64,000 nt of DNA from assembly GCF_900168015.1 (NCBI RefSeq), contig NZ_FUYR01000001.1, positions 1,300,943 through 1,364,942 on the forward strand, written 5' to 3'. A program made the translations under genes and the position numbers. The notes under the pieces are model-generated. The model saw nothing but the letters and a program-made list of their open reading frames with translations, had not been told where the DNA came from and did no database searches. Positions within the stretch are counted from its first letter, which is position 1. Every line of letters begins with the position of its first letter. This document shows, one piece after another, positions 1,842 through 59,899 of the stretch. This DNA comes from Daejeonella lutea. GTDB taxonomy: Bacteria; Bacteroidota; Bacteroidia; Sphingobacteriales; Sphingobacteriaceae.

Positions 1842-3425
1842 TTATTTATAGTCAGAATAATACTCCAAGATCTCATTTATTAATAAAAGATACACATCTT
1901 CTGTAATTTTATTTTCCCGATGGTTAAACAACAGCATTAAATGCATCTTCACGAAGACATCAGTGAATTTTTTACTTGTAAACAAAGGATATGATGAGTT
2001 TATAATAATTGTATCGTCTTGTAATTTGCAGGCCGGAAATAAAGAGGTTTTGAAATCCCAGTGTTCAGACTTAACCAAATATTTTTTGTTTTTAATGATT
2101 ATATGCTTTTCCAGGCTACTAAGATTCTCAGATACGATAACTTCTTTATTTTCCTCGTTAATAACTACTCCTTTTGAATTATCACTTTCTGTCTTGAGAT
2201 CAAAGCCTTCTTCTTCAAGTTTTTGCAGTTTTTTTTGAATATTTACTGGGTTTAATAAACTTAAGTTGTTGACCCTGAATTCTTTACCTGTTTGTTTAAT
2301 TTCGCGAATAATATCAGCTTCATCTTCCAAGCGGTTTGAAAAGTAGTTCAGTCGCCTGCTTAGAAAATCTTTTAGCTCTTCATAATCGGTACTAAAGTTG
2401 AAATCATCCCTAGAAACCTTTATTAATTCATTCATTCCCTCAATAATATGAACCTCCCCGGTTAGCCAGTGGAACCTTGATCTTGTTGCGCCATGACTAG
2501 AGGAAAAGTTCTCTCTTTTATCCCCAACACCAACATTTAGGTTCCTAACTTTTAGATAGCGAGCTTCGTAAGGTTTGACACTTTTCCTTGACGTGAGAAT
2601 AGCGTATTTAAATTTGATTTTGCCAATTTGATTGTATGGTTCCTTGTGTGTTTCAAGAATCTCATTTCCATATACTTTTCGAAATAATTGTTCGCCGTTG
2701 ACATGAACTTCAAATGGGATGTTGCTATGAAGATCGAACATCGTATTGAAACGGTCGTCTTCAAACTTTATAGGCAAATCATCGGATAAAATCCACTGTA
2801 ATTTTCTAATAGCATCAAAATTGTCAACCGAACTATTGTCAACCCTATTCGTTTTTTGCTTTCTGGGATAAAAAAAAGATTTGGTGAGATCATTAAAGCC
2901 TGTAAGAGTGATTTTAGTGAAGCTTCGAGTACTTTGAGAAAAGTCCTGCACCCTACCTCCGTTAATCAAAATGCTACTGACATCAACAAATTTGCTTTGG
3001 TCTGAAAAATATTTAAAAAGCGGGATTGTAGCATGTAGTTTAGTACTTGTCCCGGCACGTTTAGATTCAATACTATAGTTTCTGAAAAACGGAAATACCG
3101 AAAGGAATCCAACTCCGAATTGTCCGATAATAGGTCTACCCAGTGGTGTAAGATTGTCTTCCTTACGCCTTGTTTTGCCAGCGATTCTCAGATAGAATTC
3201 AAAATCCTTATCACTCATACCTCTCCCAGTATCTTCGATAACGACTGTTTCAGTATCAAGATCGATGTCTATAGTTACAGATTTAGCATCTGCATCGTAA
3301 CTATTAGTTATAAGCTCCTTAAGAGCTCTTGGAAAATTCTGATAGGTTGACTGGCTGAGTACGCTAACGATATTTTTATCTACCGTAATACTTTTTGGCC
3401 AGATGTCATTATTTTCGTCCAACAT
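1842..3425 (-). CDS. GHKL (Hsp90/MutL/MORC-like) ATPase
   Basis: A 527-residue protein with a Bergerat-fold ATPase in its first 170 residues. The N-box is ALKELITNSYDADA, the G1 box is EDTGRGMS and the glycine-rich lid is GQFGVGFLSVF. The remaining about 350 residues resemble no catalytic domain I know; they include a beta-rich middle part and a helical, charged segment at about 370-420. The start overlaps the stop of the methylase gene (TAATG). Prokaryotic MORC/MutL-type GHKL proteins are known to occur in restriction-modification operons with adenine methylases, and this layout matches that pattern. A DNA-clamping or loop-trapping motor role is inferred; it is not a classical Hsp90 because the length and middle domain differ. 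Confidence 0.8.
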   Translation of the reverse strand: MLDENNDIWPKSITVDKNIVSVLSQSTYQNFPRALKELITNSYDADAKSVTIDIDLDTETVVIEDTGRGMSDKDFEFYLRIAGKTRRKEDNLTPLGRPIIGQFGVGFLSVFPFFRNYSIESKRAGTSTKLHATIPLFKYFSDQSKFVDVSSILINGGRVQDFSQSTRSFTKITLTGFNDLTKSFFYPRKQKTNRVDNSSVDNFDAIRKLQWILSDDLPIKFEDDRFNTMFDLHSNIPFEVHVNGEQLFRKVYGNEILETHKEPYNQIGKIKFKYAILTSRKSVKPYEARYLKVRNLNVGVGDKRENFSSSHGATRSRFHWLTGEVHIIEGMNELIKVSRDDFNFSTDYEELKDFLSRRLNYFSNRLEDEADIIREIKQTGKEFRVNNLSLLNPVNIQKKLQKLEEEGFDLKTESDNSKGVVINEENKEVIVSENLSSLEKHIIIKNKKYLVKSEHWDFKTSLFPACKLQDDTIIINSSYPLFTSKKFTDVFVKMHLMLLFNHRENKITEDVYLLLINEILEYYSDYK

Positions 3426-4489
3426 TAAACTCCGATAATTAAAACTTCTCGATTGTTTGCAGCATCACCATTTTGGTGATTTAAAGCGTATTTATAATGA
3501 ATACTTTCGGAAAAAACTTTTTTACCAAGTTTTTCAAACATTGCTACTATCTCTTCAATAGATGGCACCCCGCCCTCTTTGTACGAGACAACTACAATCG
3601 AATTCCTAAACTTATAAAGCAATTCTTCCATTTTTTCGGAAATGTTAGCCTTTGTAAGTTGATTTATATCGTTGTGATCATCCAGTCGTTTAATAAGAGT
3701 ATCTTGATTAATTAAGCCTTCCCATTCGGAATACTTAGACAACCCTTCTAAAAAGTGATAGCACTTATGGTAGTTTGAGGTTTCGTGTCCGCTTTTTAAA
3801 TTAAAATATGGCGGGTCTAGGTACACCAGGTCGTAACCATACTCATCAAGGTCTAATATATGACTATTTAGAGAGTTACACATCTTATTGTTTGAAAATA
3901 CCAAAGAGTTTGCTTCATCGGAAAACTGTTTAAATAATGAATCAAACGGTTTTTCCCAACTTGTTTTATTACCAAAATTTCGGACAACGTCATTTGTTCT
4001 TAAGGAAAGATTCTTTCTATGAAACAGGTTGAATGGACGCTTTATAAGGCAGGCTTGGAAAAGGGCATAGTATGCCAAAGCCTGTTTGTGTTGTTGATCC
4101 CCAAACAATTCCGTGATCCCCTCTGTTAGATTGTCGATCCATTGATTTTCATCGTCCAGGTAAAATATCCCTTGAAAGTTTCTTTCAACAATTTTTCTCT
4201 CCGAAATGTAGTTAGTTAGATTTACAAGGTCATTCTCGCTTAGTAGGTCATAATCATTTTCTATTAATCCTTTGCCAATAATATGATTGAACTTTAATAG
4301 ATCGTTATAAGTAACCGTTTTGCCTAGTTTCTTGAATAGATAGCTGACGGTACCAGTGCCGCCAAAGCCATCCAATACCGTTTCGTATTTTAAGTCTAAT
4401 CCGGTTAGGACCTGACTCATCCAGCGTATAATTTTCCTTTTGCTACCCTGATAGCGGGTAATTGGGTATTCTTTTAAATTTACTTCCAC
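3425..4489 (-). CDS. DNA adenine methyltransferase, D12 (Dam-like) class
   Basis: A 354-residue N6-adenine methylase of the D12 family. The N-terminus has the SAM motif TRYQGSKRKI, motif I is LDGFGGTGTVSYLFKKLG, and the catalytic motif IV DLVYLDPPYFN lies near residue 222. It transfers a methyl group from S-adenosylmethionine to adenine in double-stranded DNA. It is the first gene of a minus-strand operon followed by GHKL and AAA ATPases, and is divergent from an HsdR-N-like nuclease gene 98 bp away. This context suggests that it marks self DNA in a restriction-like system rather than acting as an orphan Dam. It is longer than E. coli Dam (278 residues), with inserts around 120-200. Confidence 0.88.
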   Translation of the reverse strand: MEVNLKEYPITRYQGSKRKIIRWMSQVLTGLDLKYETVLDGFGGTGTVSYLFKKLGKTVTYNDLLKFNHIIGKGLIENDYDLLSENDLVNLTNYISERKIVERNFQGIFYLDDENQWIDNLTEGITELFGDQQHKQALAYYALFQACLIKRPFNLFHRKNLSLRTNDVVRNFGNKTSWEKPFDSLFKQFSDEANSLVFSNNKMCNSLNSHILDLDEYGYDLVYLDPPYFNLKSGHETSNYHKCYHFLEGLSKYSEWEGLINQDTLIKRLDDHNDINQLTKANISEKMEELLYKFRNSIVVVSYKEGGVPSIEEIVAMFEKLGKKVFSESIHYKYALNHQNGDAANNREVLIIGV

Positions 4490-4587
4490 TTAAAAACAAA
4501 GATATCTATAATTTTTATATCACGTGTTAAAATCCGAAATTCAAACGTGCAAGCACCATTCCACCGGAAAATTCGAATCGATACTTT

Positions 4588-5472
4588 ATGAAAACACAAC
4601 CTATTTTTAACATCCTTGAGGGATTCGATTTCTCTAATCTGGACAACCCAGAATTTAAGGAGGATGCTGTGCGGGAGGAGTTAGTAGTTCCAATAATAAA
4701 AGGCTTAGGATATCGTATTAGTAAACCTAATCAAATAATTAGAAGTCGGAAGCTATTACACCCGTTTGTTTCGATAGGTTCAAAAAGGGAGAAAATTTAT
4801 ATAATTCCGGATTATCTTTTTGAAGTTAATGACCGACCTGCCTGGATCATGGATGCTAAAGGCCCTAGAGAAGCTCTTGTTAAATCAAAACATGTGGAAC
4901 AAGCGTACTCTTACGCTATGCACAATGAAATCCGTGTAAACTATTTCGCGCTTTGCAATGGATACGAATTTGTGTTATATGATGTTAGCAAGATTGAGCC
5001 GGTATTAAGATTCCCTTTACCAGCAATATCGTTGTATTGGGGAGATTTGCAACGAATATTAAGCCCTCAAACAATTTTTAACAATGCCCAGGCAAAACTG
5101 GCGAAAGATCTCGGATTGCATTTGAAACGATTGGGCTTTGACCAGTTTGAAAGTATGTTTTTCCCATCAGTACCTTTAACTAACATTGGACAGTTAGATC
5201 CTGATATGTACAGCACTTCAGGCGCCATCATCAATGATGGTGAACGATTTGTTGTTACCTTCGACTTTGATGCTCTTACATTTCAACAATTAAAAGGAAA
5301 AATACCAGATACTGCTTTCAACGACTTAAGTAAACGAGAGAACGGGCCTAGGAAGGCTGTTTCTTTTGCAAATGATGCTTTTGTGGTGCACATTGATTGC
5401 CGTGTGGGTAGTCAACTAGAAGAGAACACTGATGAAATTTTTCAGCCTCTAGTCGTAAATCGCTTTATTTAA
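4588..5472 (+). CDS. HsdR N-terminal-domain-like restriction nuclease
   Basis: A 294-residue protein whose first 150 residues match the type I restriction enzyme R N-terminal nuclease domain. It has the opening KEDAVREELVVPIIKGLGY, then a PD-(D/E)XK-like core IIPDYLFEV...AWIMDAKGP (catalytic D, D and K), then an HVEQAYSYAMHNEI helix. No helicase part is present, so it is a stand-alone nuclease module. The C-terminal half is unassigned. It is transcribed away from the methylase/GHKL/AAA operon and is the natural candidate for that system's cutting subunit, the missing ATP-driven motor being supplied by the neighbours. Confidence 0.72.
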   Translation: MKTQPIFNILEGFDFSNLDNPEFKEDAVREELVVPIIKGLGYRISKPNQIIRSRKLLHPFVSIGSKREKIYIIPDYLFEVNDRPAWIMDAKGPREALVKSKHVEQAYSYAMHNEIRVNYFALCNGYEFVLYDVSKIEPVLRFPLPAISLYWGDLQRILSPQTIFNNAQAKLAKDLGLHLKRLGFDQFESMFFPSVPLTNIGQLDPDMYSTSGAIINDGERFVVTFDFDALTFQQLKGKIPDTAFNDLSKRENGPRKAVSFANDAFVVHIDCRVGSQLEENTDEIFQPLVVNRFI

Positions 5473-5587
5473 ACGTGGTGAGCCCGAAAAAAAAACGCCT
5501 CAGCCGGCATTTGAAAGTTTTATAAGTATTTATGAGAATTGAATCCGGAAGTCCGGTTGGCTTATACCGCATTTAAATCACCTATTA

Positions 5588-7261
5588 GTGGCCACAGCAG
5601 TCCCAATTTTAAACTATAGTACATTTTATCCCAATTGGGAAATTCCTGCCAGGCCCCTTGACCTCGTAGGCGACTTTAACATTGAAGAGGTTATATTAAT
5701 GCTGGTTGCACTCAGAAATTCATTGGAGAGAAATCGATATGATTTGCAACATGACAACATGGTGAGTGCTTTGATTAGTGAGCTACCTACTGAAAAATCG
5801 ACAAGGTTGAGAAGTTTCCTATTTGGAAATCCTCAATTTACACTAATACATTCTGTGGTAATTTCTAAGGTTTTGGTTGACCTTTTCCGGCAATTATCTT
5901 CAAATAAACCCATACTTGATTTTGAAAAAGGCCATTATGAGGAAAGAATACTTGATCTCATTTTAATCTATAATGAACAACATTACGATAATATGTTGGG
6001 TGAAAGAGCGCAGGATAGTCACGAACTGGTCTGGGGGCTAATGATGATGCAGAACCTCAGTGGTGTAAACGAGATCCATTATGCCAGGACGGGACCGATC
6101 AAGCATCTAATATTTTTGCGATACCTGCGAACAACTGTTGGAAAGCATTTTATGCGGTTCGAGCAAAGTCTAAAAGACAGTACAGGAATGGGAAATATTA
6201 ACCAATTCTTGGCGATATTTCTAAGTATCTTTTCATTCTTGACTAAAAGAGATGTCCCGAACTCACTTCTACCCCAGATTGACCTAGAAGACCCAAACTA
6301 TTCCTACCTAAAATTAATGGGATTAGTATTAGACCGTGAAAGTGTAGAAACTGAAAATTTTGATGTAGGCACGCTTTTAACCCACCCTTTTTTTCAAACT
6401 TCGGATGGCAAAACATATATCCTAGATCATCGGGATTTTTCGCTTATGATTGAGCGGGTTTTTATGTACGTTCTATACCATAAAAGCAATATCTGTGAAT
6501 TATTGGCCATAACAAATTACAATGGTATGCTCGGGCATTTCGGACTGCATTACTATGAGCGATATCTTTTGAATGGACTTTTCACAACCATGGAAAGACC
6601 TGGGGTAAGAATGATTGCCTCCGATGATAATAACCTTTCGGATTTTACTTTAATCGTCAATGAGACTGACGTGTTCATTATTGAAGTCAAGGCGGTTTCG
6701 GTTCACTACCGGGTTTTTGATCAACAAGATTTAGTAGGCTTCAAGACATACCTCGATGATAATTTTAGTGGTAAAAAAGGGGTGCAACAACTTGTAAGAA
6801 ACATTTCTTACCTGACGAATGATCGTTTTAAGTTGTTGTCCCTAAAAAAGCCCTCGTCTAAGCTGAATGTTTTTCCAATAATAGTCTTTGTAGACCCGCA
6901 GGCAGGTGTCCACGGAGTTAATGATTACGTGTCGGGCATTGCAGAGGAGAAATTTGAAGCATTGAGACATAACTTTAAATCTATACGGCCATTGACAATG
7001 ATCAGTTGTGATTTCTTTCTAGAGAATATTGAACTTTTACAAAACGACAGAAGCCTGTTCAAACGTCTGATAATGAGTTATCATTCCGCTATTCAAAACA
7101 GAAAATTGAGTTACAAGAAGTTTCCATCAACTGAGAATTATGTGAAAGCAATGGTTGGCTTCGATCAATTGTCGATCGGGAAGGAAGGGATTTACAGAAG
7201 GGATCAAAAAGCAATATTTAAGAATCTTGTTACGATCTTTAAGCTGAAGGAAAAGGTTTAA
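5588..7261 (+). CDS. Large hypothetical protein with a PD-(D/E)XK-like motif
   Basis: A 557-residue protein that I cannot assign to a family. Around residues 345-375 it has DFTLIVNETDVFIIEVKAVS, a D-x(n)-ExK arrangement like the core of PD-(D/E)XK nucleases or NERD domains; the rest is mainly alpha-helical. The start taken is a GTG, because the frame is open upstream only to 5543 and the first ATG inside lies 37 codons further on. It follows the HsdR-N-like gene by 115 nt on the same strand and may belong to the same transcript. Defence-related nuclease activity is inference. Confidence 0.6.
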   Translation: MATAVPILNYSTFYPNWEIPARPLDLVGDFNIEEVILMLVALRNSLERNRYDLQHDNMVSALISELPTEKSTRLRSFLFGNPQFTLIHSVVISKVLVDLFRQLSSNKPILDFEKGHYEERILDLILIYNEQHYDNMLGERAQDSHELVWGLMMMQNLSGVNEIHYARTGPIKHLIFLRYLRTTVGKHFMRFEQSLKDSTGMGNINQFLAIFLSIFSFLTKRDVPNSLLPQIDLEDPNYSYLKLMGLVLDRESVETENFDVGTLLTHPFFQTSDGKTYILDHRDFSLMIERVFMYVLYHKSNICELLAITNYNGMLGHFGLHYYERYLLNGLFTTMERPGVRMIASDDNNLSDFTLIVNETDVFIIEVKAVSVHYRVFDQQDLVGFKTYLDDNFSGKKGVQQLVRNISYLTNDRFKLLSLKKPSSKLNVFPIIVFVDPQAGVHGVNDYVSGIAEEKFEALRHNFKSIRPLTMISCDFFLENIELLQNDRSLFKRLIMSYHSAIQNRKLSYKKFPSTENYVKAMVGFDQLSIGKEGIYRRDQKAIFKNLVTIFKLKEKV

Positions 7262-8554: not shown

Positions 8555-8774
8555 TTACAATTGTTATTATTGTAAGATTTTCTTTTTGCTTCTTTTTCTT
8601 TTGTTAATAAGCTGTGAATTTTGTGGAAAGGTTAACACTGACAGAGGAGCACTATCTCATAGCCAAAATTCAAGCTTTATTCCGCGATTTAGTCCTCTGT
8701 CAGTTGTTTAAACAAGCATCAAATAGAAATTAGAGTTTGCAGACTCATTAGTAAGGGTTTGATTGTGTTTAAAC
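8555..8774 (+). ncRNA. Putative IS110 bridge RNA
   Basis: Three stem-loops lie in order in the non-coding left end. The first is a 7-bp hairpin (8555-8561 with 8569-8575). The second is a perfect 12-bp stem (8637-8648 with 8693-8704) closing a 44-nt loop. The third is a stem of two blocks (GTTTAAAC 8706-8713 with 8767-8774; ATCAAA 8718-8723 with TTTGAT 8758-8763) closing a 34-nt loop. In the second loop CTCATAG (8656-8662) matches CTAATAG just left of the insertion at six of seven bases, and GCGATTT (8684-8690) is the exact complement of AAATCGC just right of it. The third loop has partial matches to the element's own ends. This is the order expected for target-binding and donor-binding loops. 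Confidence 0.72.
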
Positions 8775-8811
8775 GTCGTTAACCATTGTTTAACCATTCA
8801 AGGGCAAATTT

Positions 8812-9816
8812 ATGAATTACACTTTTTTTATCGGTATTGATGTGTCCAAAAACACACTTGACTTTGCAGTATCTGAAGGAAAGGAGCTGCTCTTACAAAC
8901 CACCATTTGTAATGAGCTTTCAGGAATCAGGGAGTTCTGGAACCAGCTGAAATCCATCAAGGCATTTCGCCTGGAGAAGACTATCTTCTGTTTGGAGCAT
9001 ACTGGTGTTTACAGTCAGCATATATTAAGCTTCCTGTATGGCAAAAAAGCAAATATATCCATGGAAGCATCTGTTCATATCAAACTGTCCGGTGGCTTAC
9101 AGCGAGGCAAGAATGACAGAATAGACGCTGTTAGAATAGCAGAGTACGCCTGCAAAAACAAGGAAACTCTTAAACTGTGGCATCCTAAAAGGGAAGTCAT
9201 CCAGCAACTTAAACATTTATCAGCTTTACGTTCCAGATTAATCAACGCAAGAAAACAATTGGCTGTAGCAATTAAAGAAATTGTGCCTTTTGAAAAAGCA
9301 GCTGCAGGAGAAATGAAGAAACTTTGCAAGCTGTCTCTAAAAGCATTAGATGCAGATATTAATCAGGTAGCCGAGAAACTGGATAGTGTGATTCAATCAG
9401 ATCCGGAGTTACAACGACTGTTTAAGGTTGTCACTTCTGTGGATGGTATCGGTAAGGTAACGGCAACAGAGATGATCATTACAACTAATGAATTCAAAGA
9501 CATTTCTGAACCTTCCAAGTTTGCTTGCTATTCTGGTGTAGCTCCATTTGAACATTCATCAGGAACCAGCTTGAGAGGCCGGCCCAGAGTGTCGCATAAG
9601 GCTAACAAAACGATGAAAAGTCTGCTGCACATGGCTGCCTTAACAGCGATTATTTATAATACTGATCTCAAAGCGTATTATCAAAGAAAGGTAGAAGAAA
9701 GGAAAAGCAAAATGTCAGTCATTAATGCTGTTAGAAACAAACTTATATGGCGAGTATTCGCATGTGTTAGAAATAATAAACTATATCAGAAAAATTGTGA
9801 AATAACACTTGCATAG
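8812..9816 (+). CDS. IS110-family transposase (DEDD recombinase)
   Basis: A 334-residue protein of the size usual for IS110. The N-terminal RuvC-like domain shows the acidic residues in FIGIDVSKNTLDFA, CLEHTGVYSQ and GKNDRIDAVRIAEYA. A coiled-coil linker (about 120-190) follows, then the Tnp-IS116/IS110/IS902 domain with VDGIGKVTATEMI and CYSGVAPFEHSSGTSLRG, where the catalytic serine is expected in HSSGTS. It should recombine target and donor DNA guided by the RNA encoded just upstream. The frame is intact, so the element may still be active. Confidence 0.95.
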   Translation: MNYTFFIGIDVSKNTLDFAVSEGKELLLQTTICNELSGIREFWNQLKSIKAFRLEKTIFCLEHTGVYSQHILSFLYGKKANISMEASVHIKLSGGLQRGKNDRIDAVRIAEYACKNKETLKLWHPKREVIQQLKHLSALRSRLINARKQLAVAIKEIVPFEKAAAGEMKKLCKLSLKALDADINQVAEKLDSVIQSDPELQRLFKVVTSVDGIGKVTATEMIITTNEFKDISEPSKFACYSGVAPFEHSSGTSLRGRPRVSHKANKTMKSLLHMAALTAIIYNTDLKAYYQRKVEERKSKMSVINAVRNKLIWRVFACVRNNKLYQKNCEITLA

Positions 9817-9819
9817 ACC

Positions 9820-10293
9820 ATAGAAATCGCAGTGGTCATTAACTTATTAGCATTCATGCAGTACTCATATATTAAGAAGGAGGTAGAAACTCGAGATTAT
9901 GATGATATTGCCCTCCATTGGAATAAGGATGTTAACGTTCCATTTCCTGTTTTGGATCTTCCTGACGTCTTGAATTTTAGATCTATTTTCACTGGAATAA
10001 CTGAGAGGCAAAAATATTTTATTATTATTTTAATCGGGCTAGTGAGCTTTAGCTATTTGCTAGGCAGACGAGAGGCTTATTCCAAAACAGTTTACGAAGT
10101 ATCAGTAGAGAGAAAAAACTTTATCCTTTTGAGAAAATACGGGGATGATCTAATTTTTAAGAATTATGATCCTAAAACAAAGAAATTGGGGAACAACTTA
10201 GTCCTTTTTAAGATAGGTAGCTCGGATGCTAACACATTTACAACTAGGCATGTAGGGCCGTTAAGTTATTTTTATAATATACGTCGAGAATGA
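9820..10293 (+). pseudogene. Membrane protein, C-terminal part, separated by the IS110-family element
   Basis: In the frame that continues the upstream fragment this reads IEIAVVINLLAFMQ, a hydrophobic stretch that completes the membrane segment cut by the insertion. A cytoplasmic loop, another membrane span (YFIIILIGLVSFSYLLG) and a soluble tail of about 75 residues follow. A GTG at 9832 could start an isolated fragment, but nothing suggests that it is used. No known domain was recognised in the tail. Confidence 0.75.
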
Positions 10294-10360
10294 ATAGATT
10301 CATTAGTCACGACAATGCCATCACGAATACCACTATTATCTCGGTCTTCAATCAACTATT

Positions 10361-10858
10361 ATGAGGAAAATAATTTTTAACTTCTTAGGTGATTCCGATT
10401 TGGACTTATCTTCATATGAATCCATCAAAGATTTGCTAATACCCTATGAAGTTATCAAATGTGATTCTACTGAAGTAATTTTTGAGACTCTTAATCAAGT
10501 TAACACGGACAACGAATCTTTAATGTTAACGTTTCTTGGACATGGCGCAAATGAAGATGGGCTTGTATCCTATCAGGTTGAAAATCGACTTCTATTATTA
10601 TTTGAGGATTTGCTTCCCGAGGTTAACACATTAAGGACGAATAACCCTGTTATATTAAATTTAGTAGCCAATTGCAATAGTTACAGATGTGAAGGCTATT
10701 TGTCGCCCGATAATAGAATTGATAACATCTGGGTGACGACGACCCATACCGATTCCATATCCCGCGCATTGGTAGCAATCCGTGCGGAAACTTTTGACTT
10801 TTTCTTAGAGGATCTTGAAGATGACAGTGAACGCGCTCGCTATAGGTTAATCAGCTAG
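10361..10858 (+). CDS. Small caspase-fold (clan CD) protease candidate
   Basis: A 165-residue protein with the layout of a caspase-like catalytic core. A hydrophobic strand ends in a histidine at LMLTFLGHGANEDG (H61), and a second strand ends in a cysteine at VILNLVANCNSYRC (C105). The His-Gly and x-x-Cys endings and the 44-residue spacing fit the caspase/CHAT superfamily; the protein is shorter than most and lacks an extra sensor domain. It follows the interrupted membrane-protein gene by 67 nt. Membrane protein plus caspase-like protease pairs are plausible abortive-infection modules. The family call rests on the two motifs alone. Confidence 0.5.
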   Translation: MRKIIFNFLGDSDLDLSSYESIKDLLIPYEVIKCDSTEVIFETLNQVNTDNESLMLTFLGHGANEDGLVSYQVENRLLLLFEDLLPEVNTLRTNNPVILNLVANCNSYRCEGYLSPDNRIDNIWVTTTHTDSISRALVAIRAETFDFFLEDLEDDSERARYRLIS

Positions 10859-10875
10859 ACTAAGTTCACCCCTTT

Positions 10876-11034
10876 TTATCGCACAAAGTCACGTTCATGA
10901 CCTCCATCATCTACTATTGGTAATGAGTAGCCAGAAGATATAGCAGAGCCTGGATAACGGTCAACCAGGAGCTCGCCACAGGGGTTTAAATATAATCCTT
11001 GCAAGAGATGACCCCTGGCATGTTCCCTTGTCCA
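10876..11034 (-). pseudogene. Short coding-like remnant between the caspase candidate and the OLD gene
   Basis: On the minus strand a frame stays open for about 50 codons and reads like protein: GLYLNPCGELLVDRYPG then SAISSGYSLPIVDDGG, ending in a TAA at 10878-10876. It has no ATG start (only an internal TTG) and lies alone in a 220-bp gap. It looks like the C-terminal end of a lost gene; I do not recognise the family. Confidence 0.3.
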
Positions 11035-11079
11035 GTATTATACCGTAGCGATGGCTGGTGAATTGTATGCTATAGATTC

Positions 11080-13083
11080 TTATGCAGGGAACGCGATTAA
11101 CAAGATTTCACTAGCTAAATTTTTTAACTCTTTGAATCCCTCAGTCTTCTGCCAACTGTCATAGTTGACCTCGTTTAAAAGGACTATAACATTATCTAAA
11201 TCCTTTTTTCGATACCCCTCAGGAAAATAGTTTTCTATGTCCCCTTGTATCAACAGGAAAACATTACTTTTTTTCTGTTCCAAAGCAAATTTCAACAACA
11301 ACGCTTCCTCCTCTGGTGTTAGCGACGGTTTCAATTTCGTCCTAAAGCTTTTGATATAATCAACGAAAAGCTTCAGCTCTTCAGTTGATCCTGAGAGGAT
11401 AGCCTCATCAAGGAGATCAATCAATTTTGGAGCGTCCTTGCTATCCGGATTTTTCATAGCAAATCTATCCACCTTACTTTTGTCAACCAGAAACAGCCCC
11501 TTGATTTCAGGAGTGCCGACCTGATTAATATAATCTAAGTCAGCAATAAAAAAGTGCGGTACTTTGAGTGAAGATAAAAATTCAGAATATTTTCCATGGT
11601 TATTTTTTCCTCCAATATCTACTATTTCAACGACTTGCAAAAGTTTCCTTTCATTCACGACTTCCAAAACAATTTTCTGAAAAACTATCCTGTCGGTCAC
11701 GCCTTCTACTAGTATAACAAGATCTGCAAAGAATATTTTCTCGTTGTTTGTACTATTTACGATATGAAGCAGGTCTTTTATTTTTAATGACGATTTATCT
11801 CGTAATAATAAGGCTTTGCTTGTTCCATCCTCCTTGAACAACCTCACTAAATGTTTTAAAGATCTTTCCTGAATAAAAATCGATGAATGGGTCGAAATTA
11901 TAAATTGGTTACCTGTTAACTTAGAAATCTCAAAAAACAAATCTAACAGGAGGTTCTGCCAACGAGGATGAAGATGCAACTCCGGTTCATCGATCATAAT
12001 CAGACCGTTTTTTATATTGAGGGCAAATATCCCAAATAAGTAATTTAAAATTTCTTTCTCTCCTGAACTAGCTTGTGATAGCAATAGCCTCTGGCCATCT
12101 TTCAATAAAGTTATTTCATAAATATTGCGATTGGGGTCCTTTAATTCTAACTTCCAGTCATAGCCCAATCTGTTAAGAAATTCAGTCATCAGCAGTACTT
12201 CATCGTCCTTTTTCCAGGCTTCATCAAATGCTGTCGACGCTGATTGGCTTTCATATCTGCGTCTTTTTGCAGCGAAATATATAGATGCAATGGAAATTAA
12301 AGATGTGTTGCTTTTCGAATTCCATGTGTGTACCTCTTGCAAGGCTTGATTAAATGATCGTTGAGACAAGTTTGCTTGCAAGCTCTCCGGTGATGACATT
12401 CCGCGGTAAGGACTAAAAAACAAAAAGTTTGGCTTTAGAGCGATGGAGTCATGATCTTTAAAAAGTATAAGGGCCATCTCAAAGAATTGCAGATAGTTCA
12501 GGATAATCTCCTCTTCGACTGACAATGCATGATCGTTTGCTACTCCTATTGGCGCTCCGGGAAAGGGATGCTGGTGGGTAGAATCACCTAGCAGCACATA
12601 ATCTTCGATAGTGTATGAAACGGAGGAACCTGCTTTTAAGTTATCTATATTCCAGCTCGATGTGTCATAAACGTGCGAGAAATGAGAAGAATTTTCAAAC
12701 TCATCTAGAATTTCAGTTACTAGAGGGGAATTATCCTTCAGTAATTGAATGTTTTTAAGATCGTCTTCACTTATAATAAATTTAAAAACGAGCTTCATCG
12801 GATCGCCCGGACGCTGGATATTTTTTTCAAGTTCAGTCCGAACTTGGTCGATGTTGTGATTTTGACTAATACTTTTGCGTCCAATTGCATTGCCGGGCAT
12901 GTTATCAGAAATGCTTGCCGGCTTTAGAAAGTAAGTCTTCAAACAAAGTGTTATAATATCCAGCAAATTGCTTTTGCCACTTCCATTTGGGCCAATTAAG
13001 ATATTGAAATCTGTATTGAAATCTAATTCTGTTTTGTCGCGAAAGCTTTTGACGTTTTCAATATAAAGGCTATTTAGTTTCAT
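11080..13083 (-). CDS. OLD-family ATPase with TOPRIM nuclease domain
   Basis: A 667-residue protein with an N-terminal ABC-type ATPase and a C-terminal TOPRIM domain, the arrangement of overcoming-lysogenization-defect (OLD) nucleases. Walker A is LIGPNGSGKSN near residue 32, the signature is SSGEKEILNYLFG, Walker B is LIMIDEPELHLHP and the switch is ISTHSSIF. The TOPRIM part has the glutamate in LVEGVTDR and the acidic pair in FIADLDY. No UvrD-like helicase gene is next to it, so it is not a Gabija pair. Its ATG overlaps by ATGA the stop of a frame that continues the upstream coiled-coil gene, which shows translational coupling with that gene. Confidence 0.85.
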   Translation of the reverse strand: MKLNSLYIENVKSFRDKTELDFNTDFNILIGPNGSGKSNLLDIITLCLKTYFLKPASISDNMPGNAIGRKSISQNHNIDQVRTELEKNIQRPGDPMKLVFKFIISEDDLKNIQLLKDNSPLVTEILDEFENSSHFSHVYDTSSWNIDNLKAGSSVSYTIEDYVLLGDSTHQHPFPGAPIGVANDHALSVEEEIILNYLQFFEMALILFKDHDSIALKPNFLFFSPYRGMSSPESLQANLSQRSFNQALQEVHTWNSKSNTSLISIASIYFAAKRRRYESQSASTAFDEAWKKDDEVLLMTEFLNRLGYDWKLELKDPNRNIYEITLLKDGQRLLLSQASSGEKEILNYLFGIFALNIKNGLIMIDEPELHLHPRWQNLLLDLFFEISKLTGNQFIISTHSSIFIQERSLKHLVRLFKEDGTSKALLLRDKSSLKIKDLLHIVNSTNNEKIFFADLVILVEGVTDRIVFQKIVLEVVNERKLLQVVEIVDIGGKNNHGKYSEFLSSLKVPHFFIADLDYINQVGTPEIKGLFLVDKSKVDRFAMKNPDSKDAPKLIDLLDEAILSGSTEELKLFVDYIKSFRTKLKPSLTPEEEALLLKFALEQKKSNVFLLIQGDIENYFPEGYRKKDLDNVIVLLNEVNYDSWQKTEGFKELKNLASEILLIAFPA

Positions 13084-45458: not shown

Positions 45459-45745
45459 TTTCGATAATCAGGCGCTCGGTTTTTACACCAAGCTGTGGAT
45501 TCCGTAGATGAAGTATATCCTAATATACACCAACAACAATATTGTCAACACATAACTATCTTTAAATCAGAAGTTTATGTGAAATTTTTTTTGGACGATC
45601 GGAAAATTCTAGATAGATTCAATCCGTATTACCACGCCAACTGATGTGGAACCTTATTCCAGATTACTACAAATGCCGCTCTCAACCTGGTTTTTGGATA
45701 TCCTACAAAACACTTGGCGATGGTAAATTATTAATTGAGACGACT

Positions 45746-54527: not shown

Positions 54528-54555
54528 ATAAATGCCCCTATCAAGGGGCATTTAT
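54528..54555 (-). terminator. Strong hairpin terminator of the lanthipeptide precursor gene
   Basis: Perfect 12-bp stem ATAAATGCCCCT / AGGGGCATTTAT with a 4-nt loop, starting 4 bp after the precursor stop codon on the minus strand. The flanks are A/T-rich in both directions, so it can also stop plus-strand transcripts from the peptidase operon 155 bp away. Confidence 0.8.
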
Positions 54556-54559
54556 ACCG

Positions 54560-54700
54560 CTAGCACCCTAATGAAACTGTATTGGTGATAGTCGTAGGAT
54601 CAACTGTTCCTCCACTACAAAGTAAATTTGCTGAACGCTTTTTGAATTTGAACACAATTTTGGACTTGATAAACCCACGGGTTTTGAGGTTGTTTTTCAT
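54560..54700 (-). CDS. Class I lanthipeptide precursor peptide candidate
   Basis: A 46-residue peptide, too short for usual gene finding. The leader (MKNNLKTRGFIKSKIVFKFK) is lysine-rich with the K/F-x-K-S/T-x-I pattern common in Bacteroidota class I lanthipeptides. A double glycine in LLCSGG (residues 30-31) is followed by the core TVDPTTITNTVSLGC, which has five Thr, one Ser and a C-terminal Cys; another Cys and Ser precede the GG. A strong terminator starts 4 bp after the stop. It is divergent from the LytS-type kinase gene, and a LanB gene lies on the same strand behind the regulators. The call rests on composition and context. Confidence 0.75.
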   Translation of the reverse strand: MKNNLKTRGFIKSKIVFKFKKRSANLLCSGGTVDPTTITNTVSLGC

Positions 54701-54818
54701 AACTTCTTTATTTTGTTTTTCAAAAAGTTATTGGTCCCGCCTATTAGTAAAAAATTTATTACACCAATCTGGTTTTGCCGTATCCAAACATGTATATTGC
54801 CGTGATTTCAGGTTAATA
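54701..54818. promoter_or_regulatory. Shared control region of precursor and kinase genes
   Basis: 118 A/T-rich bp separate the divergent starts of the lanthipeptide precursor (minus) and the histidine kinase (plus). LytTR regulators bind direct repeats upstream of their targets, so this is the expected site for the adjacent regulator. I could not identify the repeats with confidence. Confidence 0.4.
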
Positions 54819-55889
54819 ATGGAGAGTAAGCGGATTGCTTTTTGGCCGGTATTTTACAAGCATTTATTGTGTTGGAGCATCTTTATTGCCTATGAACTGA
54901 CTTACATTTTTGTAATGACAGGCAGCATTCAGAACGTTGATGGATTAACTGTCAATTATGTTCTAAACATTTCCCTTTTCTATTTTAATGCTTATATCAT
55001 ATTGGACTATTTCGGGGAAAGACTAAAAATCTCGTGGCTTTTAATCGGGGGTATAGTTCTTCTTGAGATATTTGTATTCGTTTTGATCAAATACCCTCTC
55101 AATTTATTGATCATTGGTGACCGCATCCGTCTGAATACAAGTGTAGAATACCGCGCTTATGCGATGAGTAACATACTGAGGTCGTTTTATTACGTCCTCT
55201 TTAGTACAGCGTATTGGTTTTCAATCATCACCGTACAGCGTAACAAGAAAATCATTGAACTTGAAAGCCTGCGGCTTGTCCAGGAAAATGATAAGATAAG
55301 GTTGCAGAAAGACTTGTTATCTGCACGAAATGCCTATCTCCAATCACAGGTAAACCCCCACTTTCTTTTCAATACATTGAATTTCATGTACAATTCGTCG
55401 ATGAAGGTGTCCGAAAAGCTGTCGACTTCCATACTTACCCTTTCTGACATCATGAGGTATGCCTTAACCCGGATAGATGAGGATCAAAAGGTGCTGCTAA
55501 GAAATGAGATTGAACATATCAAAAACTTCATTGATCTTAACCAGGTTAGGTTTGATCAGCAGCTTTCTATCGACTTTCGGGTTAATGGACGTGTTGGCGA
55601 CAGCCGGATAATACCGCTTTCATTGATTACTATTGTCGAGAATATGTTCAAATACGGCGATTTGCTCGATCCTGAATACCCGGCATCACTAGTGATAACA
55701 TTGCACGAAAATGAACTGGAGGTAGAGGCTTCAAACAAAAAGAGGGCGGGTCGAATAGTGCCCGGGCATGGTACTGGATTAAAAAATTTGCGGGAACGCC
55801 TGGACATATATTATGCGGATGCGTATGGGCTGGAAATAGAAGACACAGATACTCAATATAAACTCAAATTAACAGTTATTCTAACCTGA
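54819..55889 (+). CDS. LytS-type sensor histidine kinase
   Basis: A 356-residue kinase from the ATG at 54819. Four hydrophobic segments (about 10-135) form a membrane sensor, followed by a coiled coil (IIELESLRLVQENDKIRLQK) and the His_kinase domain with the H-box VNPHFLFNTLNFMYNSS (His near residue 184). The ATP-binding part has an N-box IVENMFKYG and glycine motif GHGTGLKNLRERL. The longer frame from 54582 covers the divergent peptide gene and is rejected. It is 4 nt upstream of its LytTR partner. Confidence 0.9.
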   Translation: MESKRIAFWPVFYKHLLCWSIFIAYELTYIFVMTGSIQNVDGLTVNYVLNISLFYFNAYIILDYFGERLKISWLLIGGIVLLEIFVFVLIKYPLNLLIIGDRIRLNTSVEYRAYAMSNILRSFYYVLFSTAYWFSIITVQRNKKIIELESLRLVQENDKIRLQKDLLSARNAYLQSQVNPHFLFNTLNFMYNSSMKVSEKLSTSILTLSDIMRYALTRIDEDQKVLLRNEIEHIKNFIDLNQVRFDQQLSIDFRVNGRVGDSRIIPLSLITIVENMFKYGDLLDPEYPASLVITLHENELEVEASNKKRAGRIVPGHGTGLKNLRERLDIYYADAYGLEIEDTDTQYKLKLTVILT

Positions 55890-55893
55890 CCCT

Positions 55894-56610
55894 ATGATAA
55901 CGTGCTATATAGTTGACGACGAAAGTCATGCGATTGAAACCCTCACAGCTTACGTTGAAAAAGTCCCCGGCTTAGTCCTTATCGGATCTGCCACAAATCC
56001 GCTGGTCGCACTTGAAGAAATTACAAAATCTGTACACCCTGATATTACCTTCCTGGATGTCGATATGCCCCAACTTTCAGGGATAGAGCTGGCCGGTCTT
56101 ATAAATGATCGGACAAAGGTTATTTTTACCACTGCCTTTTCAGATTATGCAGTGGCAGCATTTGAGAAAAATGCCAGTGACTATATGCTGAAACCGGTCT
56201 CCTTTGAACGCTTCCTTTCGTCGATTAAAAAGGTGACGGATAATCTGCCGGCCAGCAAAGCAAATGCAGCGGATGATCATTTTTATATTAAATCGAATAT
56301 AAAAGGGAAAGTAATTAAACTGGCCTTTAACGATATTGTACATGTCGAATCTATCAAAAACTACCTCTCGATCTACACGGGCGACAATAAATATGTTACC
56401 TATCTGACCATGAAAGAACTAGAAAAGGTTTTACCTGAAAATCTATTTCTACGAGTTCACAAGTCTTTCATCGTTAATAAAAACTATATCAAGGCGATTG
56501 ACGGCGCTTCTATTCAATTATCAAACAATACAAAAATACCTGTAGGGCAAACCTACAAGGACATTTTGCAGAATTATATTTCTGAAAAGCTTATTGCCTC
56601 TTCACGTTAA
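55894..56610 (+). CDS. LytTR family response regulator
   Basis: A 238-residue regulator with an N-terminal receiver domain (ITCYIVDDESHAIETLTAYV, phosphate acceptor Asp in ITFLDVDMPQLSG near 55, conserved KP in YMLKPVSFERF) and a C-terminal LytTR DNA-binding domain (IVHVESIKNYLSIYTGDNKY, FLRVHKSFIVNKNYI). It is the partner of the LytS-type kinase and the likely activator of the precursor and/or lanB genes. Its 3' end overlaps the convergent lanB gene by 20 bp. Confidence 0.94.
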   Translation: MITCYIVDDESHAIETLTAYVEKVPGLVLIGSATNPLVALEEITKSVHPDITFLDVDMPQLSGIELAGLINDRTKVIFTTAFSDYAVAAFEKNASDYMLKPVSFERFLSSIKKVTDNLPASKANAADDHFYIKSNIKGKVIKLAFNDIVHVESIKNYLSIYTGDNKYVTYLTMKELEKVLPENLFLRVHKSFIVNKNYIKAIDGASIQLSNNTKIPVGQTYKDILQNYISEKLIASSR

Positions 56611-59560
56611 ATCTTGCTTTAACTGACATGTAATGACGTAAGCAGAGATAGTATATTACCATTTCATTTTTTCGCTGCTCGGTATTAAAGAGTCTGTTCA
56701 TATGCATATGAAAGATATCCAGGGCAAGCTGATCCTGTATTAGAATTGCATGCCCCCGGACCTGCTCATAAAGGAGCTCTAGCTCCATCTTGAATTGGTT
56801 CAAAGCCCTTTTTTCCTTCCCGACCGTAGGATTGTTATTAAAAGCCATGTTCACATGCCTCTGGAATACCCGATATTTCTTATTTAGGTCGGCACGCAAG
56901 GTCTTTTCATCACCATTTTCGGCCATCAGACTTTTCGAAGCTGCCTCCAGCAGGGTTATCCGGCGATCGAGGTCCATTTTAAAGGCATTAAAGATCTCCC
57001 GTAGTCCGATCACCCCGAATTCAATTAGCATCTCTGCATCGGGTTGTCTTGACAGGCGTTCGGCAATAAGCAGGCTGCTAGCCTGGAAGACTTTCTCAAC
57101 CTGACCGATCGTTTTTACGCCATAACGTTCAATTTCAGGCTTATAAGAATCAATCTGCATATTACTGATCACCGTGGAAATACCCAGTGGTCGCAGGATT
57201 GTATTAAACTGTTCCGAAACGTTCTTGACAAATTCCAGTTTCCCTAGTATGCGCACACGCAAATGGTGATCCGGATCATTATACCGGATAAAGAACCATT
57301 TATGAATATCTGCAGCGTTCCTTTTTATAAATGGATAAATTTTTCGGGATATGATGTGATTAGTCGCCTGGTCGCTGCAATAGATTTTAAGATAGATCCA
57401 CTTACTGCCAGGAAAAAAAACACGATCCTGTGTTGACTTAAGAGGTTTTGAGGCTGCAAGCCCTGCGTAAACCTTTTGAGGATTTGTCAGGCAGGCAATA
57501 TACTGGCTGATATGGATCTCATTTTCACCATCTTTTATACCTGCATCCGAATTAGACGGCATGAAAAATTCTTTAAATGTTACCTTATCTCTTTTCTTAA
57601 TATCTCTTAGCAGGAGTTGAATGCTTTCGGTAGATTGGAGATCAAAAACCAGCTGCTTGTCGCCCTCACTTAGAGCGAAGTAACGGGGGAAAGACCGCTC
57701 CAAAGCTATTTTTATAAAAGATTGCCCGTCTGTTAAACGGGAAAGTTCGGCATCTGTAAAGATCCAGGTCGCCTGTGAAAGAATTGTGTCCTTGTATTCA
57801 ATTCGGGGATAATAACTTAGCCCGGGAATGACCTCTTCGGGATTTAATGTCAGGCTTTTACCCACCGTCTGATGCTGAAGATCGCTGAGAAACCTGAAAA
57901 CAGGAAGCTCACTTCGGCCATGGTTGTATGCCGAGCTCATCCTTGGTATAACCCGCTTATTTAATCTCGAGGATCGCAGGATCAATTCATTTCCCCTAAC
58001 AGAAATCATTAGCTCATCGAGACGAATTACATGAGCGGAATCCAGGGTTGAATTCACCATCACGGGTATTTCATAGTCGCATACATGCCCCCGAACATTG
58101 ATATTCGCCGCATGCTCATCAGTAAAATAGGCTATCTCTGCAAAAATGACACTGTCATTTGCTTCCTGCTCTATCTTATTGATCTGCTTCGCTTCCTTTA
58201 ATATCTTTTCGTCGAAAGCAGTGAACCTTCCAATCAGGCTTGTTGCACCAGCCCCGCCTGCAGCTTCAATAAATACCTTGTCGTCATGTATCCTGAACAT
58301 GACAGATATCCCGGAAGCAAATGCCGTGGTGTTCTCTGGAAGTTTTCTTAAATCGTCATCGGTAATAATGATAGTCGGGTCATTTCTTGGTTTCGTCATT
58401 TTGGTGACGAGCATACTCTGCACGGCCCCCCAGGTGATGCGATCCGGGCCGGGTGGTTTATTAAAATTAATGTCGCCAAGCAATTCTTCTTCTCCAGAGT
58501 TGCCTTCCAGTCCTGCATACGATATCCCAATCTCAGGATCAAGGGCAGACATCAACGGGATTTCCTGTTTTTCGAATTTCTCAGAAAAACGAATTCTGAA
58601 CTTGCTAAGAAAGCTGGATTCATTATTGTCATGCAATCGGTATAAACAAGCGATTGCATCAAGCAGCTTAACCTGGAAACTCTCGTTTAGAGTACCGTTA
58701 ACCGAACGCGTATAATTTACATAAAACCTGTCTGTCGTTTTGATATCGCCGAGCGCGGATTTAAGCGTGTCCGCTGCTTTATAAAAGCAATCGGTATGTG
58801 GGGCGTTTAGTAATCTTAGTGAATTGACAATATCCCTGATTCGTAAATTCCCAGTCTGGGTGCTAATTCGCCCGAGGTATTTCTCCCCGGTCACATTTGG
58901 TAGCGTGCTACTCAGTATAAGCTCTTCTGCGGTAAACTCCAGCAAGATCTCATCAGGTTCATCTTCAGGAAATTTTCGCAAAAAAAAATCCCGCAATTCT
59001 GAAAGGCTTGTCCCATACCGCGTAAGTGTTTTAAGCTCCTTCAGCAATTTATTGTACCCTACGGCAGCTATTCCATAAGAGCCGGAATCCTTGCTAGTCT
59101 GCGGTAAAGTTTTTAAATACCTTAATTCCTTACCTACCCGGTAACTGCTTGCGTTAAAATGGAAGGGTTCTACAAGTTCCTCTCCGAAACATTCATCGAT
59201 AATCTCTTTAGCTAGCTTAAAATCAAGATCGATGTGCTCGGTGTTTTTGCCAGTAAAAGTCAGCGGCTCGGGTTCATTTCCCCAGGCGATTGAGGAGAAC
59301 GAAGAAAACAACCCGAACGGTGTCGCCCGATAGCACATCCGGTTATAATATTTCAGCAGACTATCGCGGGCACCTGGCTTAATCAGTTTCGGGTCGAAGT
59401 TCTGGAGTTTTACTTGATGGTAGAGATCCGGGCTTGCAAAATATAAAGCCCTCCTGAAGGACTCGTTCCTTAGAAAATGGAAATCGTAAGCATTTTTGAA
59501 ATCAGGAACAGGTAAGGCAGGGCAACGTACAAACAGAACGGGTGAAAAAACATAAGGCAG
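56591..59560 (-). CDS. lanB: Class I lantibiotic dehydratase LanB, full length
   Basis: A 989-residue protein from the ATG at 59560 (a TTG at 59695 would add 45 residues). The N-terminal glutamylation domain has FLRNESFRRALYFASPDLYH, a CYRATPFGLFSSFSSIAWG motif and SAYNHGRSELPVFRFL further on. The C-terminal elimination (SpaB_C) domain reads SKWIYLKIYC, WFFIRYNDPDHHLRVRIL and the end LCLRHYMSVKARF. It uses glutamyl-tRNA to dehydrate Ser/Thr in a precursor peptide. No LanC or exporter is near. It faces the kinase/regulator pair, and the precursor candidate is 1.9 kb downstream on the same strand. Confidence 0.93.
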   Translation of the reverse strand: MPYVFSPVLFVRCPALPVPDFKNAYDFHFLRNESFRRALYFASPDLYHQVKLQNFDPKLIKPGARDSLLKYYNRMCYRATPFGLFSSFSSIAWGNEPEPLTFTGKNTEHIDLDFKLAKEIIDECFGEELVEPFHFNASSYRVGKELRYLKTLPQTSKDSGSYGIAAVGYNKLLKELKTLTRYGTSLSELRDFFLRKFPEDEPDEILLEFTAEELILSSTLPNVTGEKYLGRISTQTGNLRIRDIVNSLRLLNAPHTDCFYKAADTLKSALGDIKTTDRFYVNYTRSVNGTLNESFQVKLLDAIACLYRLHDNNESSFLSKFRIRFSEKFEKQEIPLMSALDPEIGISYAGLEGNSGEEELLGDINFNKPPGPDRITWGAVQSMLVTKMTKPRNDPTIIITDDDLRKLPENTTAFASGISVMFRIHDDKVFIEAAGGAGATSLIGRFTAFDEKILKEAKQINKIEQEANDSVIFAEIAYFTDEHAANINVRGHVCDYEIPVMVNSTLDSAHVIRLDELMISVRGNELILRSSRLNKRVIPRMSSAYNHGRSELPVFRFLSDLQHQTVGKSLTLNPEEVIPGLSYYPRIEYKDTILSQATWIFTDAELSRLTDGQSFIKIALERSFPRYFALSEGDKQLVFDLQSTESIQLLLRDIKKRDKVTFKEFFMPSNSDAGIKDGENEIHISQYIACLTNPQKVYAGLAASKPLKSTQDRVFFPGSKWIYLKIYCSDQATNHIISRKIYPFIKRNAADIHKWFFIRYNDPDHHLRVRILGKLEFVKNVSEQFNTILRPLGISTVISNMQIDSYKPEIERYGVKTIGQVEKVFQASSLLIAERLSRQPDAEMLIEFGVIGLREIFNAFKMDLDRRITLLEAASKSLMAENGDEKTLRADLNKKYRVFQRHVNMAFNNNPTVGKEKRALNQFKMELELLYEQVRGHAILIQDQLALDIFHMHMNRLFNTEQRKNEMVIYYLCLRHYMSVKARFNVKRQ

Positions 59561-59899
59561 CATTTTTCTAAGATAACCATTGGTGGTTTGATTATAAACT
59601 TGAATGGTGAATAGGTGTTTTTGGTCTACTGGATTTGTAATTTCATTAATGTGCCGTTTTCCGGTGTTAGTTTCTGGGATTACTTTTATAGACAATCGCT
59701 ACGTTCCTATATAGAAAAGCTTTGTTCGTGTAATAAACTTCTGCTCAACGAGTGTACTGACTATCTTTTGATGAAATCCAGAAAGGGGAGCCGAACAGTC
59801 GGCCCTGCATCTACCTAAAAATGCTAATGGAATATTCACTAATCAATTCACTGGCCCGCCGAAACTGCGAGCCGGTGTTTGATTTACAAGCCGGGTCAT

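Follow-up and report, generated by a model that had tools for sequence, protein, structure and literature searches.

The window, that is, the whole stretch of 64,000 nucleotides of Daejeonella lutea DNA that was analysed, contains a compact locus formed by a short peptide gene, a LytS-type sensor kinase, a LytTR response regulator and a full-length LanB dehydratase (Table 1). A first-pass annotation of the sequence had described at this place a 46-residue precursor with its own terminator, divergent from the kinase and regulator genes and accompanied by a complete LanB, with neither LanC nor a transporter in the locus, and each of these elements was confirmed. The precursor gene is divergent from the kinase-LytTR pair, and LanB is convergent with the regulator, whose end it overlaps by 20 bp. 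The kinase open reading frame (ORF) as listed starts at the TTG at 54582 and its homologues begin at the ATG at 54819, a start that leaves the precursor and kinase genes without overlap. The start of LanB is probably the ATG at 59563, the listed ORF extending to a TTG at 59695.

Table 1. Features of the peptide module in the window and of the second module (L013) of the same genome
Feature	Position	Strand	Details
Intrinsic terminator of the precursor gene	54528-54555	-	Perfect 12-bp stem ATAAATGCCCCT/AGGGGCATTTAT; folding z = -3.6
Precursor peptide gene	54560-54700	-	46 aa, MKNNLKTRGFIKSKIVFKFKKRSANLLCSGGTVDPTTITNTVSLGC
Precursor leader	residues ~1-24 of the 46-aa peptide		Lys-rich, IVFKFKK beta-motif
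Precursor core	residues ~25-46 of the 46-aa peptide		CSGGTVDPTTITNTVSLGC region
Conserved promoter box, candidate LytTR operator	54756-54767	-	TTGGTGTAATAA; begins 67 bp upstream of the start codon (ATG) of the precursor gene
LytS-type sensor histidine kinase	54819-55889	+	356 aa; PF06580 (E 2.4e-21) and ATPase domain
LytTR-family response regulator	55894-56610	+	238 aa; PF04397, PF00072
Full-length LanB dehydratase	56591-59563	-	990 aa; glutamylation and elimination domains; PF04738 (E 1.1e-84), PF14028 (E 9.5e-59)
L013, precursor	4648-4794		
L013, kinase	4888-5964		
L013, LytTR regulator	5966-6709		
L013, LanB	8684-11476		

The precursor gene and its peptide family

The precursor ORF is a genuine gene under purifying selection. 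Orthologues 55-57% identical to it occupy the same position in two congeneric genomes, which, when compared with each other, show a synonymous divergence (pS) of 0.55 and a nonsynonymous one (pN) of 0.069, and a protein search within the genus returned a precursor match (E ~1e-8) in just the two genomes where LanB also has an orthologue, again at this position. The three-way alignment of the genus keeps the CSGGTVD motif and the run of Thr, but not the terminal Cys of the window's peptide, whose two cysteines are Cys28 and Cys46. A scan of the relatives' contigs for LanB gave nothing with a single sequence and 80 loci with an alignment, and nearly every locus of the LanB relatives holds a kinase-LytTR pair and a short divergent ORF, rich first in Lys and then in Thr. 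The short frame is in this way conserved beside other lanB genes, as the first-pass annotation had proposed to check. The peptides follow the consensus MKxxxxKxxxxKxxxx[FY]xF ... (T)DPTTxTxTxxT, and their cores have on average 7.2 Thr, 2.2 Ser and 0.16 Cys, with Cys wholly absent from 45 of the 57 family members. A double glycine occurs in 10 of the 57, at variable positions, and is mostly missing outside the window's genus. Both the double glycine and the terminal Cys singled out in the first-pass annotation are present in the window's peptide but, judging from these alignments, they are lineage quirks and not traits of the family.

Export through a double glycine and a C39 peptidase was rejected as a general route, since the GG is not conserved and the locus has no transporter. 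A search of the host genome (4.03 Mb, 99.98% complete), also proposed in the earlier reading, gave no stand-alone LanC (no match to PF05147) and one C39 peptidase-ABC transporter, in single copy ~550 kb from the locus (G000:C10:1914136-1914525, L014), which is a candidate trans exporter for the GG-bearing members only.

Comparison of the precursor with curated models (Pfam and NCBIfam, including the leader model NF038153 / lant_leader_L1a) gave no convincing match. A hidden Markov model (HMM) built from three sequences produced extra matches that were almost all at chance level, and a model of 42 sequences was used instead. An HMM-detected precursor accompanies 48 of the 52 LanB-type triads (LanB, kinase and LytTR regulator), a few of which duplicate one locus drawn from two collections. 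Of the four others, one is that of the window, removed by the overlap filter, L127 and L170 have a visible candidate, and L100 lies at a contig end. The precursor model matched 144 of the 401 Sphingobacteriaceae genomes searched (about a third; the family was named from the names of the relatives). In a phylum-wide sample of 396 genomes, strong precursor matches were found only in the window's own family, and a LanB-anchored search recovered the module also in Pontibacter and Niastella. The D. lutea genome itself carries a second, divergent and complete module, L013 (G000:C10:1281000-1300900), ~68 kb from the first, with a Cys-free core (DSTIVITTTVT) and two unrelated genes between its LytTR and LanB. 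The minimal peptide system of precursor, LanB and two regulators that had been suggested for the window is thereby genuine and conserved in related genomes.

Twenty regions with precursor matches were inspected, chosen from the stronger matches and including 16 outside the training set: kinase and LytTR genes adjoin the precursor in all 20, and LanB is also present in 15. Precursor, kinase and LytTR genes without a nearby LanB occur at L217, L224, L226, L227 and L228, with a LanB elsewhere in all five genomes, and these are possible receiver or trans-served modules. In G014, this LanB stands by itself on a separate contig (L019). The kinase, more than LanB, is the constant partner of the precursor in these arrangements.

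Core and leader evolve with different partners

Tandem arrays of 5-6 precursor genes between kinase and LytTR genes are found in Pedobacter-like genomes (L210-L213 and L225). In four of these arrays, codon differences summed over pairs of copies amount to 90 silent and 0 changed, 56 and 0, 87 and 8, and 111 and 10 in the core, and to 38 and 69, 22 and 42, 44 and 78, and 62 and 78, respectively, in the leader. Many silent but few amino-acid changes in the core imply that selection, and not recent copying, holds it constant within a locus, yet cores differ between species.

Across 50 loci, partial Mantel tests in which the other proteins were held constant related the core to the membrane domain of the kinase (r 0.17-0.20, p 0.001-0.002) and not to LanB, and the leader to LanB (r 0.21-0.26, p 0.001) and not significantly to the membrane domain, an outcome that was unchanged by the position of the leader/core cut. 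In 15 independent close pairs, which share no locus, the core followed the membrane domain (rho 0.80, p 0.0004) and not significantly LanB (rho 0.23), and the leader followed LanB (rho 0.77, p 0.002). In the first of two sister pairs, L083/L086, identity is 96% for the regulator, 93% for the kinase core, 90% for LanB and 83% for the leader, and falls to 56% for the membrane domain and 43% for the peptide core; the corresponding values for L090/L091 are 94%, 89%, 86% and 88%, and then 56% and 47%. Joint divergence of core and membrane domain is the mark of a signal paired with its receptor, and agr groups diverge in the same manner, the signal together with the membrane domain of the receptor. 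With such natural loci, nearly identical apart from core and receptor domain, this specificity is open to direct testing.

LanB and the absence of LanC

Ten residues of LanB, numbered from the TTG start, have equivalents in NisB: R57, Y116, R119, R123 and T125 correspond to R14, Y80, R83, R87 and T89 on the glutamylation side, and R813, R815, E854, R857 and H996 to R784, R786, E823, R826 and H961 on the elimination side. These equivalences come from an alignment, except for R57, which was assigned by motif to R14 in the N-terminus of NisB. All ten are invariant across 18 homologues, and several of them are important in NisB (PMC4341554). The LanB of the window, on this ground, looks active.

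LanC, which is missing from the host genome, is also absent from 17 of 24 related genomes that carry the module, and none is encoded in the locus at any of the 52 LanB-type triads. In a tree of 92 LanB proteins, the one of the window falls in a clade of 46 members (SH-aLRT support, a Shimodaira-Hasegawa-like approximate likelihood ratio test, of 100), composed of 44 LanC-free triads and two loci with the regulators apart, with the LanBs that accompany a LanC placed opposite to it. The lanB genes of this LanC-free clade usually converge on the regulator gene. The lack of LanC and, usually, of Cys would preclude thioether rings and lead to a linear product rich in dehydrobutyrine (Dhb), so that the likely modification is dehydration without ring closure. 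A lanthipeptide, the class to which the first-pass annotation had assigned the product, was accordingly rejected, there being no LanC and no conserved Cys. The earlier interpretation is therefore partly supported: the module is a real peptide system, but the lanthipeptide assignment does not hold.

In a metagenome-assembled genome of a congener, Daejeonella sp. C8_concoct.bin.119 (G015; L015/L103), LanB (2142-5174) is broken by two in-frame TAG codons and the precursor is intact; the stops reflect either a pseudogene or an assembly error.

Kinase and promoter box

The predicted structure of the kinase (pLDDT, the predicted local distance difference test, of 86) shows four N-terminal membrane helices joined to the kinase and no extracellular domain, the parts outside the membrane being short loops only. 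When it was searched against the PDB, only kinase domains were found among the matches listed, and no counterpart for the sensor part.

In many loci, the TTGGTGTAATAA box is located upstream of the precursor ATG, mostly at 58-71 bp. When up to one mismatch is allowed, 57 loci contain 43 matches, 20 of which lie on the strand of a precursor and no more than 140 bp upstream of it (0.16 expected by length). In Mucilaginibacter loci, an upstream half-site, GTTGGTATA, was read by eye ~21 bp from the box, which points to direct repeats laid out as in LytTR operators. The box is a candidate LytTR operator. Further exact or one-mismatch copies are present in the window at 45480-45491 (-) and 59725-59736 (+), and at L086:2951 and L084:12643; one of the extra copies in the window is upstream of a response regulator gene at 59879, and those of L086 and L084 precede other genes. 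The genes downstream of the extra boxes are candidate regulon members.

A putative dehydrated peptide pheromone

These data probably describe a LanB-dehydrated peptide pheromone, usually Cys-free, that would act from cell to cell and be sensed by the adjacent kinase following an agr-like logic. LanB would bind the basic aromatic leader (K..K...[FY]xF) and dehydrate several Thr and Ser residues of the core through glutamylation and elimination, giving Dhb and dehydroalanine (Dha). The leader would be removed and the peptide exported by machinery encoded elsewhere, and the neighbouring kinase would detect the core through its membrane domain. The kinase would then phosphorylate the LytTR regulator, which would act on the box upstream of the precursor, resulting in autoinduction, and probably on other genes too. 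Each lineage would have its own core-receptor pair, as in agr groups.

Several points weigh against this proposal. Dehydration, leader cleavage, export, sensing and autoinduction are all inferred from sequence, and the locus encodes neither exporter nor protease nor signal peptide; no conserved partner was found, and no exporter or protease recurs over 46 loci. The two Cys of the window's peptide would make a spontaneous thioether possible there. The fifth array, L225, is less strict than the others (66 silent and 55 changed differences in the core), and one partial test of the leader against the membrane domain gave p 0.044. Moreover, the Mantel effect is small and may be inflated by shared ancestry, and the close pairs are only 15.

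A dehydrated peptide of bacteriocin type, with killing as its main role and nisin-like self-induction through the kinase, seems unlikely. LanB enzymes are known above all for making antimicrobials, NisK-NisR responds to nisin itself (PMC8895600), and tandem amplification of the precursor would raise the dose. However, the only recurrent partners over the 46 loci are LanB, kinase and LytTR, with no immunity gene, exporter or protease recurring with the module; five precursors have kinase and regulator with LanB missing nearby, and a pure toxin would not need a core that tracks the membrane domain of a receptor. This tracking makes a signal, as the first-pass annotation had already ventured, a better reading than an antibiotic. 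The short loops of the kinase outside the membrane and the lack of a signal peptide, a conserved GG or a locus exporter could also be explained if the unexported peptide acted inside the cell, on the kinase or on LanB, as a local feedback; this we regard as quite unlikely, because lineage-specific core-receptor pairs and homogenised array cores fit specificity among neighbouring cells better, and a leader-core precursor with an enzyme of ribosomally synthesized and post-translationally modified peptides (RiPPs) usually means export. A true lanthipeptide, in which the cysteines of the window's peptide would form rings with dehydrated Thr through a distant LanC or spontaneously, has in its favour Cys28, Cys46 and the full-length LanB, but it is highly improbable given the LanC-free genome, the similar lack in most related triad genomes, the two nearest orthologues without the terminal Cys and the predominance of Cys-free members.

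The proposed pheromone system resembles the agr/Com/Fsr systems of Firmicutes in its polytopic membrane kinase, which lacks a large extracellular domain, the LytTR regulator and the precursor beside the kinase, and also in that signal and receptor membrane domain diversify jointly and the kinase core is conserved. In contrast to them, it belongs to Gram-negative Bacteroidota, uses LanB as the processing enzyme instead of AgrB or a C39 transporter, has a PF06580 kinase with four helices and, over the 46 loci, no dedicated processing or export protein. As in nisin (NisA-NisB-NisC-NisK/R), a full-length LanB would work on a leader-core precursor whose product would be sensed by a two-component system, but the module lacks LanC, LanT, LanP and immunity genes, its core is usually Cys-free and its regulator is of the LytTR and not of the OmpR type. 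Class I lanthipeptides of Bacteroidota, such as pinensins and PedA of Pedobacter lusitanus, share the phylum, a related LanB and a Lys-rich leader with a hydrophobic-x-hydrophobic-x-K motif (LxLxKx5L in PMC7268733); unlike the module, they have LanC, often C39 and GG, and Cys in the core, and their LanBs form a separate clade. The LanM-associated cyanotins (PMC7268733) also combine a lanthipeptide-type enzyme with cores able to lack Cys, but they are cyanobacterial, depend on a class II LanM and have no reported kinase-LytTR module.

Walker et al. used LanC as the anchor of their survey and left out cores lacking Cys (PMC7268733), so that a LanC-free and Cys-free family would be missed, and a survey of RiPPs in Bacteroidales found zero LanB (PMC10352776). 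No description of a module of LanB, LytTR and a Cys-free peptide was found in the open-licence literature, and an earlier mention elsewhere is possible. To our knowledge, no peptide quorum-sensing system has been established for Bacteroidota. About one in three of the Sphingobacteriaceae genomes sampled carries the module, which stands outside the protein-family libraries. We lean, although only slightly, towards the broader proposal that stand-alone LanBs produce widespread quorum-sensing pheromones in Bacteroidota, linear, Cys-free and Dhb-rich, with agr-like lineage-specific receptor pairs and with receiver modules whose enzyme was lost in cis. If true, LanB dehydratases would gain a signalling role without rings.

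Genomic surroundings and related loci

The triads L093-L099, L115, L116, L127 and L141 are flanked by genes that by eye resemble those of conjugative elements (RteC-like and TraG-like), which suggests that the module travels on integrative elements. Near the 46 LanB loci, families assigned by eye include SusD-like lipoproteins (17/46), SusC-like receptors (16/46) and TlpA-like proteins (12); such neighbours are seen, for example, at L013, L018, L019, L092-L094, L101, L102, L107 and L115. They possibly relate to peptide import or are there by chance, such genes being common.

Kinase-LytTR-LanB loci with a LanB of the other clade and with LanC-like proteins are present in Hymenobacter (L120, L121, L130, L138 and L149). 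The WCxG/CHG zinc-motif pattern was not found in the LanC-like proteins of these five loci, and the short ORFs beside their kinases are mostly Cys-free. These loci are perhaps a second family of LanB-dependent signals.

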